A program made the translations under genes and the position numbers. A stretch of DNA of 64,000 bases from Candidatus Hinthialibacter antarcticus (GTDB lineage Bacteria; Hinthialibacterota; Hinthialibacteria; Hinthialibacterales; Hinthialibacteraceae): assembly GCA_030765645.1 (NCBI GenBank), contig JAVCCE010000011.1:248001-312000 (forward strand), read 5' to 3'. Numbering within the stretch: the stretch's first letter is position 1; the number at the start of each line of letters is the position of its first letter. This document shows positions 15,591 through 26,368 of the stretch, piece after piece. The notes below the pieces were generated by a model. It was not told the DNA's origin and made no database searches. It saw nothing but the letters and a program-made list of their open reading frames with translations.

Positions 15591-16301
15591 ATGAGACGAC
15601 TGTCTATTTTATTTGCATTGTTTGTGTTTGTTTCCCAGAGCGGTATGGCGCAAGAAGTTGACTTAGTTGAGTATTTTCGCTTTAACGATCCCCCCGTTGC
15701 TTCCGGTTATGTCGGCCAAACAACAGACGGCGCGTATGTCACACGATTTGAATACACGCCTGACTTTTCTTTCAATGGTTTCACCACGCTCAAACAAGAA
15801 CGCTTGAGCGGCCCCATCGTGGCTGAAAACAGCGTCAATACCAATTATTTTTTGGTCAGTGATACATCCTGGGACACAGTCGGCGTAGCATTTACTGCAG
15901 AAATCGGCAGTGCATCCTTCCCGATGGAACTCAAGTTTGATCCACCAATCTCCACCGCGCGGTTTGTTGCCATCGGCGACACCATAACTCAAACAGGAAC
16001 GTCTCTCGTGTTTTTGGCGGCAATCCCTGTTAATATCAATTTTAATGTAACAATGAATGTTCTGGGGTTTGAATCGCTCGAAACCCCACTCGGACAGTTT
16101 GACAATACATTGAAGATGGAACGCCTGGTCTCCTTCTCGATTCCAGGTCTAGAAGAACGGATCGAAACGACAGAATGGTATCACCCAAGCGTAGGCCTCG
16201 TTCGTTCAGACGCGATTGGCGGCGGCGACAGCCTGTCGATTCAACAAATTGAACCACCACTGGACACTGGAATCAGAAATTGGAAGTCTGCGCTCGACTA
16301 A
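15591..16301 (+). CDS. Exported protein of unknown function (DUF3108/TapB-like)
   Basis: About 236 residues with a signal peptide (hydrophobic LSILFALFVFVSQS, cleavage near GMAQ-EV). The rest is beta-rich; the ending WYHPSVGLVRSDAIGGGD resembles the WYAPGVGLVK pattern of DUF3108/TapB-like periplasmic proteins. The start is uncertain: in-frame ATGs occur at 15573, 15576 and 15591 and none has a strong ribosome binding site; 15591 puts the signal peptide first. It is the first gene of the receptor/kinase operon and overlaps the next frame by 22 bp. No function is assigned. Confidence 0.7.
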   Translation: MRRLSILFALFVFVSQSGMAQEVDLVEYFRFNDPPVASGYVGQTTDGAYVTRFEYTPDFSFNGFTTLKQERLSGPIVAENSVNTNYFLVSDTSWDTVGVAFTAEIGSASFPMELKFDPPISTARFVAIGDTITQTGTSLVFLAAIPVNINFNVTMNVLGFESLETPLGQFDNTLKMERLVSFSIPGLEERIETTEWYHPSVGLVRSDAIGGGDSLSIQQIEPPLDTGIRNWKSALD

Positions 16302-18415
16302 ATTCGTTGCGAAACGCTTGTAGAAAGAATTCGTTTATACCGAGTATAGGTTCTTTCTATTGGGCTTTCTATTGGGTATTCAATTTTCGTTTATCAACTC
16401 AACGAAGCATTTGTCTTGCCTTGTTTTTCTGTTCAATTACAGGAGAAGCGAATGAAAAGCCGTCCACCGAAAGTATGTCGCCACTTACACAATTCAGTTT
16501 AGAAGAATTATTAAATCTGCAAGTCACGACAGTTTCAAAAACAGCTGAAAACCAATTGGACGCCGCCGCCGCCATTTATGTGATTTCGCAAGAAGACATT
16601 CGACGCTCTGGCGTGACCAGCGTGGCGGAGGCGCTGCGCCTGTCTCCCGGTTTACACGTTGCGCGAATTGATTCCAACAAATGGGCGATCAGCGCCCGCG
16701 GATTCAACGACCGCTTCGGCAACAAACTGTTGGTGATGATTGATGGGCGCTCAGTCTATACGACGATGTTTTCCGGCGTGTATTGGGATATGCAAGATTT
16801 AATCTTAGACGACATCGACCGCATCGAAATCATACGCGGCCCCGGAGCAGCGCTATGGGGGGCCAACGCCGTCAATGGCGTCATCAACATCATTACCAAA
16901 AAAACCGCTGACACGCGCGGCGGGCTTCTCAGCGTGTTGGTGGGGACGGAAGACCAAAACATCACCCAGTTTCGATATGGCGCACCATTAGGCAGCGAAG
17001 CCGATTACCGATTGTACGGTAAATTTTTCGACCGCGACCATTTTTCAACGCGAAACGGCGACAACGCGGACGACGAGTGGAGCGGCGGGCGCGCCGGTTT
17101 CCGCATGGATTGGACGCCGTCGTCTCAAGACGCGGTAATGTTCCAAGGCAATCTCTATACGGGGGAATCTAAAACCGCCGAACAGCTGCCGTTTTCTACG
17201 CCGCCATACTTAGACCACTTTCTCGGCGACGATGACTATTACGGCGGGTATATTTTGGCCAACTGGGAACGACAACTCTACGATGAATCAAACATAAGCC
17301 TACAAACCTATTACGATCACGACCGCCGCGATAACGCATACGCCGACATCACCCGCCATATTTTTGATATTGATTTCCAGCATAATTTCCCATTGTCGGA
17401 CTGGCAAGAATTCAGTTGGGGACTGGGATACCGTCTCACTGCTGATGACATTGACGACACGATCCGTTATATGGCGTCGCCCGCGAGCCGAAACGACCAG
17501 TTATTGAATGCGTTCTTACAAGACAAAATCGAACTCATTGAAGATGAATTAACGCTCACGCTCGGCAGCAAATTTGAACACAATGATTATTCGGGCTTTG
17601 AAATCCAGCCGAGCGGCAGACTGCTCTGGTCGCCCAATGAACAGCACCGGCTGTGGGGCGCCATTTCTCGCGCCGTGCGTACGCCATCGCGCTTTGAACA
17701 TGACATCCGCTTTCCAATTTTGGCTACGCCTCCGTCAAGCGAAAGAAACCCGCTGCCCATTCCAGTGGTCGCGTATGTTCAAGGCGATGAAGATTTCGAT
17801 GCTGAAGACCTGCTTGCGTTTGAAATCGGCTACCGCTATCTGTTCAGCCAAAAATTGACCTTCGACGCAGCCGTGTTTTATAACCAATACACAGGTCTGC
17901 GTTCGGGTACGCCGGATGTGCTGACCTTATCGGATGACGGCCTCTATGGCGTGGCGCCTATTTTGGCGGACAACGACATGGATGGAGAAACCTACGGCGC
18001 TGAAATCGCGGTGGACTACGCCCCCGTTGAATGGTGGGCCTGGGCGCTCACCTATACCTGGATCGACATTCAACTGCATCTGCCGTCAGACAACCCAATC
18101 GTAGATGTGTTAAGCGATGAAAACGGAACGCCCCGCCATCAAGCCTCCTTGCGCAGTTCGCTTGATATCGGCGAGGAGATCGACTTTGACCTCTGGCTTC
18201 GTTACACCGACAAACTGCCGACGTATGACGTTCCGTCTTATTTTTCGTTGGACGCCCGCTTGAGTTGGTCGCCTGGCGATAATTTCGAGTTCGTACTCGG
18301 TGGACAAAACTTATTGAACGACAGTCATGTTGAATTTACGCGCTCGAATTTTTTCGCCGCGTTTCCGTCTGAAGTCGACCGTCAGGTATACGCAAAGGTG
18401 ACATGGACATTCTAA
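16280..18415 (+). CDS. TonB-dependent outer membrane receptor
   Basis: About 711 residues. An N-terminal hydrophobic leader (RSICLALFFCSIT) precedes the plug domain (FSLEELLNLQVTTVSK, VYVISQEDIRRSG-like start, EIIRGPGAALWGANAVNGVINIITK) and a 22-strand-type barrel that ends in the aromatic residue of VTWTF, as expected for BAM-dependent insertion. Such receptors import siderophores, cobalamin or glycans. The start is unusual: the frame opens with TTG at 16280 inside the preceding gene, with another TTG at 16307 and no ATG before the plug. It overlaps the YfiR-like gene downstream by 13 bp. Position next to a sensor kinase suggests ligand sensing coupled to uptake (inference). Confidence 0.88.
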   Translation: MEVCARLNSLRNACRKNSFIPSIGSFYWAFYWVFNFRLSTQRSICLALFFCSITGEANEKPSTESMSPLTQFSLEELLNLQVTTVSKTAENQLDAAAAIYVISQEDIRRSGVTSVAEALRLSPGLHVARIDSNKWAISARGFNDRFGNKLLVMIDGRSVYTTMFSGVYWDMQDLILDDIDRIEIIRGPGAALWGANAVNGVINIITKKTADTRGGLLSVLVGTEDQNITQFRYGAPLGSEADYRLYGKFFDRDHFSTRNGDNADDEWSGGRAGFRMDWTPSSQDAVMFQGNLYTGESKTAEQLPFSTPPYLDHFLGDDDYYGGYILANWERQLYDESNISLQTYYDHDRRDNAYADITRHIFDIDFQHNFPLSDWQEFSWGLGYRLTADDIDDTIRYMASPASRNDQLLNAFLQDKIELIEDELTLTLGSKFEHNDYSGFEIQPSGRLLWSPNEQHRLWGAISRAVRTPSRFEHDIRFPILATPPSSERNPLPIPVVAYVQGDEDFDAEDLLAFEIGYRYLFSQKLTFDAAVFYNQYTGLRSGTPDVLTLSDDGLYGVAPILADNDMDGETYGAEIAVDYAPVEWWAWALTYTWIDIQLHLPSDNPIVDVLSDENGTPRHQASLRSSLDIGEEIDFDLWLRYTDKLPTYDVPSYFSLDARLSWSPGDNFEFVLGGQNLLNDSHVEFTRSNFFAAFPSEVDRQVYAKVTWTF

Positions 18416-19062
18416 ACGCTATGCGCTCTTTCTACGGGGAATTCGCGCGACGCCTTTCCGGCGACGCAGCGGCGCCCGTGCGCCTAGCGCGTAGAACGTG
18501 GGGCCTTGCGGCGATTGCATTGATCGGGTTCAGCGTTTTCGCCCTGCCTCAGTCCGCGCAAAGCCAACGCGTCTATGATGAGTACGAAGTCAAAGCGGCT
18601 TTCATTTATAATTGCATGCTCTTTGTTGACTGGCCGAATGAAACCGATAACGAATCGAAAAAGCCTTACACAATTTGCATATTAGGCGAAGACCCATTTG
18701 GCAAATTTTTAAACACGATCGCCCGCACCAAAACCATTCAGTCGCGCCCCATCAAAATTCAGCGAATCAAATCGCTCGAAGAATTCAAGGACGCGCATAT
18801 TCTGTTCATCAGCAAAAACGAGCAACGAAACCTTAAGAAAATTCTTGAAACAGTCAGCGACAAGCCCATACTCACCATCGCTGATTTTTCGGGCTTTGCC
18901 GACAACGGCGGCGTGTTGGAATTCTTGCTGATTAACAACCGGGTCAATTTCCGGGTCAATGAAAAAACGGCGAACCAAGCGAAACTACGCATGAGCGCTC
19001 AGTTGCTCAATTTGGCGGTAGAAATTATTCGCGATCCTGAAGCAGAGGGTGCGTCCGAATGA
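18403..19062 (+). CDS. YfiR-family (DUF4154) periplasmic protein
   Basis: 219 residues with a late signal peptide ([21 protein letters not shown]). The mature part starts with [21 protein letters not shown] and contains the family segments [19 protein letters not shown] and [26 protein letters not shown] is the typical closing region. YfiR in Pseudomonas is a periplasmic regulator that restrains the membrane cyclase YfiN. Here it lies directly before a membrane hybrid kinase, with a 4-bp overlap, so it likely controls that kinase (inference). AAAGGTGAC before the ATG at 18403 supports this start, although it overlaps the receptor gene. Confidence 0.85.
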
Positions 19063-21989
19063 CAAATTTTGAAAATTTGCCTATACAGCGCAAATTGATT
19101 TCGATCATACTCCTCACCAGCACGATTGTTCTGGCTCTGGCTTCGTTTGCGTATTTGAATGTTGAAATCATTTCGTTCCGAACCAATCTTGTCGAAGAAA
19201 TCACCACTCTCTCGGATGTCATCGGCCAAAATCTCACAGCCGTCATCCGATTTGACCGTCCCGAAGAAGCCGAAGTCATTTTGCGATCCATTCAGACGGT
19301 GCCAAGCATCAATTCCGCCTGGGTCTATCGGACGGGGTCGAGCGCATTATTGGATACAGGCCCTGATGACGGCCCGCCAAAATTGTTCACGTCTTTTGAG
19401 GCAAGCGTCTCCGACCAAGCGGGGGTTTCAAATACCAAAATCATCGAACCGCCTCTTGAGATTCTTACAGCCGTTCAATCGGACCTAACCCGTCCCGGCA
19501 ATCACTTCGGTCTTCAAACTTTGCTTGTTTGGACCCCGGTCAAACTAAACGATCAGATTATCGGGACCGTCATCATTGAGTCATCTCTTGAAAATCTTTA
19601 TCTACGTCTCTTCTGGTTTTTGGCCTACATTCTCGGCATTTTTGTGATTGCGCTCGGCGCCGCCTATTTTGTCTCACGCCTCTTACAAGGCTTTATTTCC
19701 AACCCCATCCTGAAACTCAGCGATGCGATGGGGTCCATTTCACGCGACCATTCGTATACGGCCCGCATGGAAGGCCGCCGCGCTGATGAAATTGGCGTAT
19801 TAGAACGCGGCTTTAATGAAATGGTCGCGCAAATACAAAAACGCGACGACGCGCTGCAGCGCCATCGCGGAATGTTGGAACAACTCGTCGAGCAGCGCAC
19901 CGCCGAATTAACCAACACCAATCAGGAATTAGAAGAAACCGTCATCGAACTTCAAAACGCGAAAGACGCCGCCGAATCGGCCAATAAAGCCAAGTCGCAG
20001 TTTCTCGCAAATATGAGCCATGAAATTCGCACCCCGCTCAACGGCATCCTCGGGTCTCTTGATTTGCTGCGAGCAGGCGACATCAACACTCAACAACAGC
20101 ATCTGTTGGATATATCCCGCTATTCCGGCGATTCCCTGCTGCAAATCATTAATGACGTTTTAGATTTCTCCCGAATCGAATCGGGCAAGTTAAAGTTAGA
20201 AATTCTTGAAATCAATCTGTTGGAATTGATCGAAGACACCATCGACCAACAAGCGGAACGCGCCTACCGGAAAGGCCTGGAACTCACCAGTTATTTCCCG
20301 TCGCTCGCGCCCATCAAAGTGAAAACCGATCCGTTGCGTCTTCGGCAAATCTTATTGAACCTACTAAGCAACGCCGTGAAATTCACCGAACAGGGAGAAG
20401 TTTCGTTAAGCCTGGATGTGATCGAAGAAGACGCTGACTCCATACGAATTCGCTTTTTGGTCGAAGATACCGGCATCGGCGTTGACCCGGCGCTCAAGCA
20501 CCGCCTGTTTCATTCTTTCACGCGGGCGGATGAAACCACCACCCGTCGGTTTGGCGGGGCGGGATTAGGGCTGGCCATCTCAAAGCACCTAATCGAAATG
20601 CTGGGCGGCGTCATTGATTTTATTCCAAAAAATACAAAAGGCGCGACTTTTTGGTTTGAGATTCCGCTGCAACGCGGTCAAGAAAACGTATTGACTGACC
20701 GTCCCAGAACTTTCCAGGGCAAACGGGCTTTAATTATTGATCCAAACCCAAAAATCTGCCGAATGGTCAGTCATTGGCTGGATTACTATGGCGTTCATAC
20801 AGACTACACCCAAACCGACCTAGACGGTTGGAACCGAATCCAAAGCCAAATTGAAAAGCAGGCGCCGTATGATTTCATCTTTATTCCGTCTTCCTTACTC
20901 GAAAAGTTGAACCATGAAGTCACTCAGGCGTTCTTGAATCCACAGGCGCTAAATCCAACCGCCTTGATTGTTATGGCCCCAATGGGCAAAACGTATGACG
21001 CTGAATCTCTGCAAGAGTTTGCCTCATCAATAATTTTAGAAAAACCGATTCGCCAGTCGCGTTTGCTGAATGCGTTACACACGGCCATACAACCCACCGT
21101 CGAACCCGGTGAACCCACCACGGAAGATGTTGCAAATTCTCCGCCGGAACCCGCGCCGGCTCTCGGCATCGTCCTGTTGGTTGAAGACAACCGCATCAAC
21201 CAAACTATCATGAAGAAAATGATTGAGCATTTGGGGTATATCGTCCGCATCGCCTCCGATGGACAAGAAGCAATCAAACTATACAAAAGCGCACTGTTTG
21301 ACGTGATTTTAATGGATTGCCAGATGCCCGTCATGGATGGGTATCAAGCATCAACGAAAATACGGCAGATTGAAAACGAACCGGGAAACGACAGCCACAT
21401 TCCCATCATCGCGGTCACGGCGCACGCCATAAAGGGAGACCGGGAAAAGTGCATCGCTTCTGGCATGGACGACTATATCAGCAAACCATTTACCCTGGAG
21501 CAACTAGGCGAAAAACTCGAGCAATGGCTCTCTGCAAACCCGATGCAAATAGAGAAAGTCGCAAAAATTCTTCCAAACACGGAACCACCGCAAGAGCAAG
21601 AAAACGCCTCTGCGGCTCCTGAACCGCTTCATTTAGACCTTTCCATGTGGGCCAATATTGAAGCGCTACAATCAGGGCCAGACGACAACCTGTTGCATGA
21701 GGTTATGCAAAATTATCTAACGGACGGGCAAAGCAACCTTGAAAAATTAAACCAATCCATTGAAGAGCGAGATGCAAAATCTATTGAATTGATTGCTCAC
21801 ACATTTAAATCGAGCAGCGCCAACGTCGGCGCTATGCGTTTATCTTCTTTCTGTAAAGAACTAGAATTAAACTCACATGCGAATGAATTGGGCCAAGCAA
21901 CGCCTTTGTTTGAATCAATGCAAAATGAATTCGCCATTGTAAAGCATAAAATTTTAGACCAGTTAGAAAAGCGGGCCCATGCAAGATAG
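19059..21989 (+). CDS. CHASE8-type hybrid sensor histidine kinase with HPt domain
   Basis: 976 residues. Layout: transmembrane helix (about 12-32), periplasmic CHASE8-like sensor (about 35-185), second helix (about 187-210), HAMP, coiled coil, HisKA with [15 protein letters not shown], HATPase with NLLSNAVKF and [11 protein letters not shown], a degenerate receiver (about 548-685, phospho-acceptor replaced in FIFIPSSLL), a complete receiver ([32 protein letters not shown]) and a C-terminal HPt with the intact [13 protein letters not shown]. It is a full phosphorelay on one chain. It overlaps YfiR upstream by 4 bp and the response regulator downstream by 11 bp, so all are coupled in translation. 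Output probably passes to the stand-alone regulators or other receivers. Confidence 0.93.
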
Positions 21990-22842
21990 CCAAAACCAGA
22001 CATACAAAGCCTTGATTGCCGACGATGATGCAAGTTTTCGTTTTCTCGTCAAGAAAACTCTTAGCCAATCCGGGTTTGAATTGATTGAAGCCAGCGACGG
22101 AGAAGAGGCCGTCGAACTGCTCTATGAGCATCCCGTTGATATCCTGTTGCTTGACATTTCAATGCCCAAACTGGACGGCCTGGCAACCTGCCGTAAAATT
22201 CGCGACGCTGAGGACGGGACCCGAATCCCGATTGTCATCATCACAGGCGTTGACGATGTAGAAGCAATCAAAGATTCGTTTCGTGCAGGCGCGACAGATT
22301 TTATTGCGAAGCCCATTAACTGGCTGATTTTTGCCGAACGCATGCGTTTTATCATTCGCGCCAATCAAGAGCAACTGGCGTTTTTACATGATGACGAAAC
22401 GCAAGATGACCTGTTAAACCAAATTTCAGGGCTGCCTGACGATATTCAATTTTCTGAACCAGTCGATAAACACGTCTTATGGAACCTGCACCTGCTTGAG
22501 AGAGAAACGGGATCGGAATTTATCTCTCAGCTGGTCAAATCATACTTGAATGAACTCCCAGGCATGTTGAAACAAATCGACGACGCTTTCAACAACCGCC
22601 ACAAAAAAACCTTGCACGAAATCGTTATTCGCGTCAAAACAAAAAGTGAAATCCTCGGCGCCAAGTTAATGGTTGCCGTCGCTCGTGAAGTAGAGCATTC
22701 GATTCTCAGCGGACGCTTTCAATACGATCAAACAATACCAGAACGCTTTCAACAAGCGTTTGATTTGACCAAATCAACTCTACTGCAAACAGCGCAAGAC
22801 CTTATTTCTGGAAAAGAGGGCGAACCTGTCGATTTGGATTAA
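21979..22842 (+). CDS. Response regulator with receiver domain and degenerate HPt-like C-terminus
   Basis: 287 residues. The receiver (about 10-130) is intact with D15-D17, D59 (ILLLDISMP) and K111 ([14 protein letters not shown]). The C-terminal helical domain (about 165-280) aligns with the HPt of the upstream kinase, but the [13 protein letters not shown] box reads [13 protein letters not shown], placing I217 where the phospho-histidine should be. It overlaps the hybrid kinase by 11 bp. Same architecture as the product of 14366-15178. No DNA-binding or enzymatic output domain is seen, so the pseudo-HPt may be a docking or inhibitory module (inference). Confidence 0.87.
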
Positions 22843-23005: not shown

Positions 23006-23578
23006 ATGAAGAGAACACCCAGATTTTGGAAGACGCTGAGCGCTATGGTTTTTGGCGCGGCACTCTGCTTGTGCGCCAGTTTTGACGCAAACGCAGCCGC
23101 TTATATCAAGTTTGATGGCATCGATGGCGAGTCGGTTGATGTGAAGCACGAGAAATGGATCAACATTCTCAGCTTTGAACATGCAATTCGATATGATCGA
23201 GACCAAGGAGACGCCAATCCAACGCGTCGCGGCAAGACTTCATTAAGTGATCTTACCTGTGTGAAAGAACTCGATAAATCGAGTCCGAAATTGGCCGAGA
23301 GCATACTCACGAACAAAGTCTTTCCCGAAGTGAAAATCGAAGTGACCAAACGCGGCGCAGGCGGCGAAAATCAGGCAGTCTATTTAACCTACGAACTGAA
23401 AAATGTAATCGTCACCAGTTATCAGTTCCAAGCGTCTGGCGACGGCGATGAACCTCCGGTTGAAGTCTTTTCTCTCAACTTCGAAGAGATCAAAGTGACC
23501 TACAAGGTCTTTGATGCGACTGGCGGCGCCAATGAAAGCGTCGAATATAATTGGAAAGTAGAAGAAGGCGTATCCTAA
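23006..23578 (+). CDS. Exported Hcp-fold protein (type VI tube protein-like)
   Basis: 190 residues. A clear signal peptide (cleavage near ANA-AA) is followed by AAYIKFDGIDGESVDVKHEKWINILSFEH, the N-terminal strand pattern of the Hcp1 family, and by a typical ending FSLNFEEIKVTYKVFDATGG. Hcp normally forms hexameric rings of type VI secretion tubes in the cytoplasm and lacks a signal peptide. No other type VI genes are present here, so this is an exported Hcp-fold protein of unknown role. GGGAGAAGAG precedes the ATG. A second paralogue follows after 11 bp. Confidence 0.83.
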   Translation: MKRTPRFWKTLSAMVFGAALCLCASFDANAAAYIKFDGIDGESVDVKHEKWINILSFEHAIRYDRDQGDANPTRRGKTSLSDLTCVKELDKSSPKLAESILTNKVFPEVKIEVTKRGAGGENQAVYLTYELKNVIVTSYQFQASGDGDEPPVEVFSLNFEEIKVTYKVFDATGGANESVEYNWKVEEGVS

Positions 23579-23589
23579 GGAGCCGAAGA

Positions 23590-24756
23590 ATGTTACGAAA
23601 CCGAACGGTTTTGCTGCTCCTGGGTCTGGCGCCTCTGTTTTTGTTGACGAGCTCGACTGCTCATGGAGCAGCGTATATCAAGTTTGACGGCGTTGACGGC
23701 GAGTGCCAAGACGCGAACCACAAAGGGTGGAGCGATATCCTCTCCGTCGAACACTTAATTCAGCATGTACAAATTGCGACGAGCGGACGGACGCTTGCGC
23801 AACATTTCGATCTGACGTTTACAAAAGAATTAGACAAAGCCAGTCCAAAACTGGCGGAAGCGTGTCTTAGAGGCAACAAGATCAAACGTGTTTTGATTGA
23901 GTTCCAATCGAACATTGATAATCCATTCATTTGGGAACGAATTGTTTTAGACAATGTTTTGGTCTCTCGTTATGAAATTCAAACGTCAGACGAAATTCCA
24001 CAGGAAAGTTTTTCATTAAACTATGAAAAGATTCATTGGCGATATGTTCCAATCAATGCAAATGGAAGCGGAGAGGCGCCGGTGACATTCGGCTGGGACC
24101 AGATCGCGAATGTCCCCTTTGACCCGGAACAGGCCGAACCAACGCCAACCCCGACTGTGAATCCAGTCGAACCAACGCCAACGCCGGTTACAAACCCGGT
24201 TGAACCAACGCCGACGCCAATTGTTGGGCCTATTGACCCAACGCCCACGCCGCCGACGCAAGGCAGCGTGACCATTGGCGGCGACTTGCTCAATCTCTAT
24301 GAAGACGAGTTTCGACAAAAGGCCGTTATCGTACGCGAGTTGAATTTGTCGCAAGACCCGCCGGGTATGTCGGACTTATTCAGCGAGCAATTTTATTCGA
24401 TGGCTTCCTTGCCGGGCGGCGGCGTGATTACCAACGTGAAAAAACGCAACCTTCAAGGATTCGACAACGCCGAAATTCCTGACGACGCCGATCTGTTGGT
24501 GCGAATCACGCCGGAAGGCGAGATGCTGCCGTTTGCGCAAATCAAATCGCCGGACGTTCTGCTTGACGGCGAGCCGATTCAAGACGGTGAATCCAAATTT
24601 TTGAATCTATCGTTTAATGGAAAAGATGAAATCAGCGTACTCATCCGCGTAAATGGTAAAAACAATCGAAGCAATAGTCCTTATGCAGCCGTTGTGTTAT
24701 TAAAAATCGTTGGGCCGTTTGACGCAGCCAGCGTCGGTTCGTTCCGCGTATATTAA
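23590..24756 (+). CDS. Exported Hcp-fold protein with Pro-Thr linker and unknown C-terminal domain
   Basis: 388 residues. Signal peptide (cleavage near AHG-AA), an Hcp-like domain (about 28-175) starting GAAYIKFDGVDGECQD, a linker of about 45 residues built from repeats of VEPTPTP/VNPVEPTPTP, and a C-terminal domain of about 165 residues (VTIGGDLLNLYEDEF to the end) not recognised. AAGGAG lies before the ATG at 23590, and earlier in-frame codons would overlap the previous gene. The tandem arrangement suggests duplication, with the second copy gaining an extension; a cell-surface or extracellular assembly is a plausible role (inference). Confidence 0.83.
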   Translation: MLRNRTVLLLLGLAPLFLLTSSTAHGAAYIKFDGVDGECQDANHKGWSDILSVEHLIQHVQIATSGRTLAQHFDLTFTKELDKASPKLAEACLRGNKIKRVLIEFQSNIDNPFIWERIVLDNVLVSRYEIQTSDEIPQESFSLNYEKIHWRYVPINANGSGEAPVTFGWDQIANVPFDPEQAEPTPTPTVNPVEPTPTPVTNPVEPTPTPIVGPIDPTPTPPTQGSVTIGGDLLNLYEDEFRQKAVIVRELNLSQDPPGMSDLFSEQFYSMASLPGGGVITNVKKRNLQGFDNAEIPDDADLLVRITPEGEMLPFAQIKSPDVLLDGEPIQDGESKFLNLSFNGKDEISVLIRVNGKNNRSNSPYAAVVLLKIVGPFDAASVGSFRVY

Positions 24757-24779: not shown

Positions 24780-24818
24780 AACGCCGCTGAGTGTATAATA
24801 TTCAGCGGCGTTTTTTAT
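24780..24818 (+). terminator. Rho-independent terminator after Hcp-like pair
   Basis: Stem AACGCCGCTGA (24780-24790) pairing with TCAGCGGCGTT (24802-24812), an 11-nt loop and a T tract. It ends the Hcp-like transcription unit 24 bp after the stop codon. Confidence 0.87.
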
Positions 24819-24898: not shown

Positions 24899-26368
24899 AT
24901 GCGTTTTGTTTTAACCATTACCATTGTGATTGCATTTAGTCTAATCTCAGCCTCGTCCGACGCTCAAACCAACCGGCCTACGCTTCCCGACCCCGTCAAG
25001 CAAACGCTGCAAACCCAGATGAAAGAGAATTTCAAACAGGCGTTAACTCAAAAAACAACATTTCAAGGCAAAGACGCTTACTATGTGCGAATTTCTCGTC
25101 CACAAAAGAAAACCAAGCATGTAATAATCGCAACCGACGGTTCGATGCTCGATCAATGGATCAGCGGTCAAATCCGCTTGCGCAATGGGCGCTTGATGCG
25201 GGATGACGATCCCTATTCGATCCGCACCGTGCATACCGCTGATATCGGAGACCCCAAACAACCCGTCTCGCATGTCTTTCAGCAATTTTTCAAAATGTCA
25301 GACGTTGGCGGCACCGCGCTTTCATTCGACTTATATGGTTTTGAAGACAATGGCGCAAAACTCAACGCCGACGCCGTCAAACGCGTTCAATTTATCATCG
25401 GTCAATTGGGCAATTACTGGACGGGCGGCGTCTGTCGCGTGTTAGGCCCTAACGCGCCCCAATCAGCGCAAGGCCGAAAACAGGCCGTTCAAACCGCTGC
25501 GAAAACATTTGCGAATGAGCCGTCCATCGCCTTTTGGATCGACGGCCCCGACGCCGAAACGCTGGGCAAAGAGTTCAAGCGCCTCGCGCCGGAAATCTGC
25601 GTCATCGCGCCCGGCGGCGACCTTGATCTCGTCTACGTTCCGCCAAAAGAGTCTCCCAAGAAAACAATATTGGTCGCAGGCAAAATGATCGAAACACGAA
25701 GCAATGTCCAATATATTTTGGCTGGCAGCGAACGCGACTTCGCCGCATTGGAAGCCGTCAATAAGTTCCCTGCGGAGTCGATGACCTTAAAACCGTCTAC
25801 CAATGGGCTAACTAAAAAAGAAATCGAAGAAGGCTTCGTCTCTCTCTTTGACGGCAAGACGCTCAACGGTTGGTCAGTCACAGGCGGCAATGAAGACGGC
25901 TTTGTCGCGAAAGGCAACGCCATCGAATGGGTCGAAACCGGCGCGGGCGCTCTGCAAAGCAACAAGCGCTACGGCGATTTTATCATTCGTTTGGAATACC
26001 GCATCGAGAAAAACGGCAACAGCGGGCTGCAACTCAGAACGCCGCGCAACAACCGCGCCTCACGCATCGGCTTTGAATTTCAGATGCTCGGCGACCACGG
26101 TCAGGAACCCAACAAAAACAGTACCGGCTCCATCTATGACGTGATTCCTCCATTAAAGAACGCCTCAAAGCCGTCGCCCGAATGGAACCAAGTTGAAATC
26201 ACGATGGACGGCCCGAAGATCAAAGCCTTCTTAAATGGGGAGTTAGTTCAAGACCTGAGTTTTGATGATTATGACGAACTAAAGTATCGCTTGCGCAAAG
26301 GCTTTATTCGCTTGACGGACCATAACAACTATGTTGCGTTTCGTAATATCCGCATCAAAGAGTTGTAA
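24899..26368 (+). CDS. Exported protein with unknown N-terminal domain fused to DUF1080
   Basis: 489 residues. Signal peptide (cleavage near SDA-QT). Residues about 25-300 form an alpha/beta region I do not recognise (contains HVIIATDGSMLDQW, ALSFDLYGFED and ICVIAPGGDLDLVYVP). Residues about 312-489 are a classical DUF1080 domain beginning FVSLFDGKTLNGW and ending NYVAFRNIRIKEL. GAAGGAG precedes the ATG at normal spacing. The gene has its own terminator. The fusion suggests that the N-terminal domain acts on or binds the same sugar as DUF1080 (inference). Confidence 0.85.
   Translation: MRFVLTITIVIAFSLISASSDAQTNRPTLPDPVKQTLQTQMKENFKQALTQKTTFQGKDAYYVRISRPQKKTKHVIIATDGSMLDQWISGQIRLRNGRLMRDDDPYSIRTVHTADIGDPKQPVSHVFQQFFKMSDVGGTALSFDLYGFEDNGAKLNADAVKRVQFIIGQLGNYWTGGVCRVLGPNAPQSAQGRKQAVQTAAKTFANEPSIAFWIDGPDAETLGKEFKRLAPEICVIAPGGDLDLVYVPPKESPKKTILVAGKMIETRSNVQYILAGSERDFAALEAVNKFPAESMTLKPSTNGLTKKEIEEGFVSLFDGKTLNGWSVTGGNEDGFVAKGNAIEWVETGAGALQSNKRYGDFIIRLEYRIEKNGNSGLQLRTPRNNRASRIGFEFQMLGDHGQEPNKNSTGSIYDVIPPLKNASKPSPEWNQVEITMDGPKIKAFLNGELVQDLSFDDYDELKYRLRKGFIRLTDHNNYVAFRNIRIKEL

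Follow-up and report, generated by a model that had tools for sequence, protein, structure and literature searches.

A candidate Sec-exported, two-protein Hcp system independent of type VI secretion in Candidatus Hinthialibacter antarcticus

The window analysed here, a 64,000-nucleotide stretch of the genome of Candidatus Hinthialibacter antarcticus, contains two adjacent forward-strand genes encoding Hcp-fold proteins with predicted export leaders. The first, Hcp1 (23006–23578, starting at ATG 23006), is a short protein of 190 aa in which a leader spanning approximately residues 1–30 precedes a mature domain of approximately residues 31–190; its putative signal peptide, MKRTPRFWKTLSAMVFGAALCLCASFDANA (23006–23095), was recognised by inspection, with predicted cleavage at ANA^AAY. 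The second, Hcp2 (23590–24756), is a 388-aa protein that matches Pfam T6SS_HCP and has orthologues in two related genomes, G001 and G004. Its most likely start is ATG 23590, located 11 nt past the Hcp1 stop with an AAGGAG ribosome-binding site ahead of it; an upstream TTG at 23551 is less likely. From the N-terminus, Hcp2 consists of a signal peptide, MLRNRTVLLLLGLAPLFLLTSSTAHG (23590–23667; also by inspection, with a predicted cleavage site), an Hcp domain (23668–24114) whose extended-loop (L2,3) region has 32 residues versus 36 in Hcp1, a proline-rich linker of EPTPTP repeats (24136–24261), and a C-terminal tail domain of 164 aa (24262–24753) with no match to a known fold. The two genes form a bicistron that is ended by a strong terminator-like hairpin on the same strand (24780–24812; 15 pairs, then a T-run). 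No convincing sigma-70 promoter was found directly ahead of Hcp1, and Hcp1 and Hcp2 are the only PF05638 matches in the genome.

Upstream of the pair (16280–22842) lie genes for a TonB-dependent receptor, a YfiR/HmsC-like protein, a hybrid kinase with CHASE8 and Hpt domains, and a response regulator; their ends overlap, and they are likely to form a translationally coupled sensory operon. The next gene past the terminator (24899–26368) encodes a 3-keto-disaccharide hydrolase domain and was not encountered next to the pair in relatives. An earlier note on this DNA had suggested a possible tie between the Hcp proteins and the adjacent receptor operon, which our comparisons do not support. Among 14 species of the phylum, the pair is present in three genera of one family (G000, G001 and G004), that is, in half of the six genera sampled from that family, with Hcp1 orthologues in the two other genera at 52–54% identity; the two genes are always adjacent and in constant order, and their neighbours differ. 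Because G001 and G004 retain the pair beside other genes, the link to the TonB/YfiR/kinase operon is unsupported, and we reject it; the pair also has its own terminator and is separated from the upstream response regulator by 163 nt, and no third gene recurs beside it among loci of different phyla.

Assignment to the Hcp family is supported by several lines of evidence. Both proteins cover the full Pfam T6SS_HCP profile (E 1.9e-35 and 122 bits for Hcp1, E 1.7e-27 and 97 bits for Hcp2, with a cut-off of 23.5 bits) and exceed the TIGR03344 cut-off, and the solved structures closest in sequence are themselves Hcps, 1Y12 for Hcp1 (E 1e-19) and 4W64 for Hcp2 (E 3e-21). An AlphaFold2 monomer model of mature Hcp1, built on 31 sequences, has a mean pLDDT of 89 and a TM of 0.85 to 1Y12, in agreement with the fold originally suspected. 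Signal peptides were called by inspection together with comparison to the N-termini of cytosolic relatives. Each leader passes from a basic to a hydrophobic segment and then to an AxA/AxG motif, ending immediately before 'AAYIKFDG', and since the cytosolic relatives begin with 'M-AAYIKFDG', at the very point where the leader would be cut, we interpret both leaders as Sec signal peptides. The initial description of two signal-peptide-bearing Hcp proteins is thus borne out. Hcp1 resembles the Hcp (TssD) of type VI secretion systems (T6SS) in its full-length domain, its fold, its core motifs and the length of its L2,3 region. It differs in that Hcp1 and Hcp2 have Sec-type leaders, as judged by inspection, whereas T6SS Hcp is cytoplasmic and leaderless, in that Hcp1 is paired with a tailed, exported Hcp2, and in that the tss genes searched for are missing from its genome.

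No TssC/VipB, TssK or gp25/TssE was found in the whole genome (5.15 Mb, 96.5% complete), in a search that consisted of these three components; this fits the earlier claim that no T6SS is present. Contractile injection systems and phage tails have tubes with a fold related to Hcp, from which Hcp1 and Hcp2 are distinguished by their leaders and by the absence of a gp25-type baseplate gene from the genome. The gp25 search was positive in two control genomes, and its blank here therefore argues against other contractile injection systems too; a hidden T6SS or eCIS in this genome was rejected on the absence of VipB, TssK and gp25. VipB was likewise absent from G001 and G004 and from the Nitrosopumilus, Dehalococcoidia and Thermoplasmatota genomes in which it was sought, and from all tested Verrucomicrobia genomes but one, the exception being a MAG (G386, locus L024) that has both an exported Hcp pair and VipB; the same search detected VipB in two T6SS controls.

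These data bear on the proposal that Hcp1 and Hcp2 are orphan or evolved Hcps of a T6SS that resides elsewhere or was recently lost, and that their leader is mistaken for a signal peptide. Pirellulales and Desulfobacterota supply the closest cytosolic relatives, Hcps with approximately 50% identity, and some of these adjoin T6SS genes, which speaks for the proposal. However, besides the missing VipB, TssK and gp25 and the lack of VipB in G001 and G004, the leader ends exactly where the cytosolic relatives start and leaders are present on both members across phyla, and we regard this explanation as highly improbable. Export of Hcp1 and Hcp2 and their independence from a T6SS are, on the basis of sequence, well supported.

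Scanning genome contigs for Hcp relatives yielded 74 loci, among which are Hcps that bear a leader or a membrane anchor, as called by inspection. Bacterial examples come from Verrucomicrobia, Dehalococcoidia/Chloroflexota, Bacteroidia, an Acidobacteria MAG and a Sumerlaeaceae MAG, and archaeal examples from Nitrosopumilus, Woesearchaeota and Thermoplasmata. Most of these genomes are MAGs, so misbinning of single short contigs is possible; the genes flanking the Nitrosopumilus locus look archaeal, and one Thermoplasmatota Hcp locus sits on a 406-kb contig. A two-gene cassette, in which a short exported Hcp is followed directly by a longer, tailed and exported Hcp, recurs in Nitrosopumilus (L025) and at several Verrucomicrobia loci, and Hcp1–Hcp2 conforms to this arrangement, including the lack of VipB. 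Other architectures were also encountered. In genome G013 an Hcp domain lies within a prepilin-like protein with a DUF1559-type N-terminus (L019:4150–5640), and two more exported Hcp-like proteins occur together on another contig (L020:2780–3968, minus strand); in a different phylum, a genome without VipB encodes an exported Hcp whose C-terminal tail is of the FlgD-Ig/T9SS type (L018:6847–7815).

Among 113 sampled genomes of the order of Luteolibacter, 21 have an Hcp: 11 with adjacent pairs (15 pairs altogether), seven with a single Hcp near VipB, and three with weak or partial matches. VipB is present in none of the 11 pair genomes and in all seven of the single-Hcp genomes (Fisher p ~3e-5), although the genomes are related and the counts are thus not fully independent. 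Thirteen of the 15 pairs are intact with a leader on each member. One Verrucomicrobia pair (L156, G428) has an in-frame TGA in the first Hcp gene and an intact partner, and G425 (L163) encodes two adjacent leaderless short Hcps without VipB, an orphan pair of a different type. With fold, missing core genes and VipB-less genomes of the same arrangement in agreement, the part of the earlier note that saw the Hcp fold reused outside the cytoplasm without a T6SS is well supported, and its extension to the receptor operon is not.

In the Hcp tree, first members cluster with the Hcps of Pirellulales and Desulfobacterota (support 94, not starred), and the Hcp2 of the window groups with its relatives in the phylum at full support, from which it follows that the Hcp duplication is older than the split of the genera. 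As the tree is weakly resolved and needs about seven changes between exported and non-exported states, export has perhaps been gained or lost several times; since the second genes, too, are spread over more than one clade, the pairs may have multiple origins. A single origin for all exported Hcps was considered and is unsupported on so weak a tree. A phage or plasmid origin was rejected also, as only T6SS-like Hcps at less than 60% identity were recovered (approximately 28–35% among the matches listed).

The L2,3 loop was measured as the region between two conserved anchors. In B. pseudomallei Hcp1, mutations in this loop block the stacking of rings (PMC4650826). T6SS Hcps have 34–38 residues in this region and first members have a median of 35; Hcp1 of the window keeps the T6SS length. 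Comparing the members of 22 pairs, the second has the shorter region in 18, an equal one in three and a longer one in a single case (Wilcoxon p ~1e-4, with the pairs being non-independent), and within the Hinthialibacter family the shortening amounts to only 1–4 residues. This pattern suggests that the second member may terminate or cap a stack of rings.

The earlier note had also drawn attention to the linker and extra domain of Hcp2, both of which are confirmed; PTPTP repeats make up the linker, and the domain of 24262–24753 has no Pfam or NCBIfam match, for which reason a role as a toxin was rejected. A model of the tail built on three sequences is only fair (pLDDT 79), and a fold search with it returned nothing significant (best E 0.014, TM ≤0.36 among the matches listed). 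The tail is also found C-terminally, behind PTP-rich linkers, in two other proteins of the phylum (L098:1492–1983, minus strand, and L099:1276–1782), of which one carries TSP3-like repeats (G008) and the other a metalloprotease-like region (G004:C40). Its occurrence in such proteins marks it as a reusable C-terminal module of the phylum, one that plausibly serves surface display, sorting or anchoring. In other lineages, modules of the TSP3, legume lectin, SdrD_B or cadherin/Ig kinds are carried by the second members, and in Nitrosopumilus an archaeal-type tail; judging from their domain content, the tails are lineage-specific surface modules.

Such tails admit another view of the Hcp domain, namely as a mere stable beta-barrel of secreted adhesin-like proteins that are monomeric or weakly associated and build no ring or tube. 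The ordinary adhesin modules on second proteins accord with it, as does the presence of Hcp domains in the prepilin-like and FlgD/T9SS-type-tailed proteins. It accounts poorly, however, for a bare first protein that consists of the Hcp domain alone and keeps a stacking loop of T6SS length, and the strict short-then-long order suggests that the two proteins are partners; we consider this view rather unlikely.

We favour instead a T6SS-independent, Sec-exported two-protein Hcp system in which Hcp1 provides a ring or tube and Hcp2 a cap or tether for surface display or adhesion, and give it a probability of about one half. Mature Hcp1 would assemble into hexameric rings, stackable through the L2,3 loop of T6SS length; Hcp2, with its usually shortened loop and its tail on a proline linker, would be incorporated as a capping or basal ring that tethers or displays the assembly at the cell surface. 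The product would serve as a scaffold for adhesion or binding, not as a tube for injection; that it assembles into rings, is capped and adheres is an inference. Several observations weigh against this reading: the tail of Hcp2 has no recognisable function and only a fair model, the loop is hardly shortened in the Hinthialibacter family, the pairs may have multiple origins, locus L024 lies in a MAG with VipB, and half of the sampled genera of the family lack the pair. Alternatively, exported Hcp rings could serve outside the cytoplasm as chaperones or carriers whose lumen holds small secreted proteins or ligands, with Hcp2 as the anchor. There is precedent in the binding of cargo effectors by T6SS Hcp through a fit to the inner ring (PMC8262886), but no conserved cargo gene was found beside the pair, and we think this improbable.

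Two kinds of previously recognised Hcp approach the system proposed here. Evolved Hcps (Hcp-ET; PMC8262886) have a C-terminal extension after the Hcp domain, as does Hcp2, which differs in having a leader, an extension without a recognised toxin, and no T6SS in its genome. PEP-CTERM-bearing Hcp genes were noted and then dropped from the tree in the same study (PMC8262886); they show that exported Hcps were already present in databases, although no two-gene system was described for them there, and profile searches with Hcp1 and Hcp2 gave no match to a PEP-CTERM motif. In open-access PMC we found no publication on an exported Hcp pair, and nothing describing such a system in the literature on exported or Sec-dependent, archaeal, or Planctomycetes and Verrucomicrobia Hcps.

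The recurrence of the exported pair in unrelated bacteria and an archaeon suggests that a tube protein has taken on a role in an extracytoplasmic structure. Two Thermoplasmatota loci (L068:7800–12155 and L066:617–5161) encode an exported protein of about 1,450 aa with eight to nine Hcp domains in tandem, which might constitute a ring or stack in one chain. As a broader and more tentative proposal, which we hold to be somewhat less probable than not, the Hcp tube protein may form a surface organelle in bacteria and archaea without T6SS, made of stacked rings with a tailed cap or anchor and represented in Thermoplasmatota by the single-chain version. The cassette is carried by a cultured bacterium, Luteolibacter marinus, in which these ideas can be tested directly.

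Annotation as Hcp is routinely taken as a sign of a T6SS, and Hcp1 and Hcp2 are so named with no such system to serve. If the exported proteins do form rings or tubes, they would represent a new type of surface structure derived from the tail-tube fold, archaea included, and would bear on the relation between the parts of the T6SS and stand-alone Hcp proteins.
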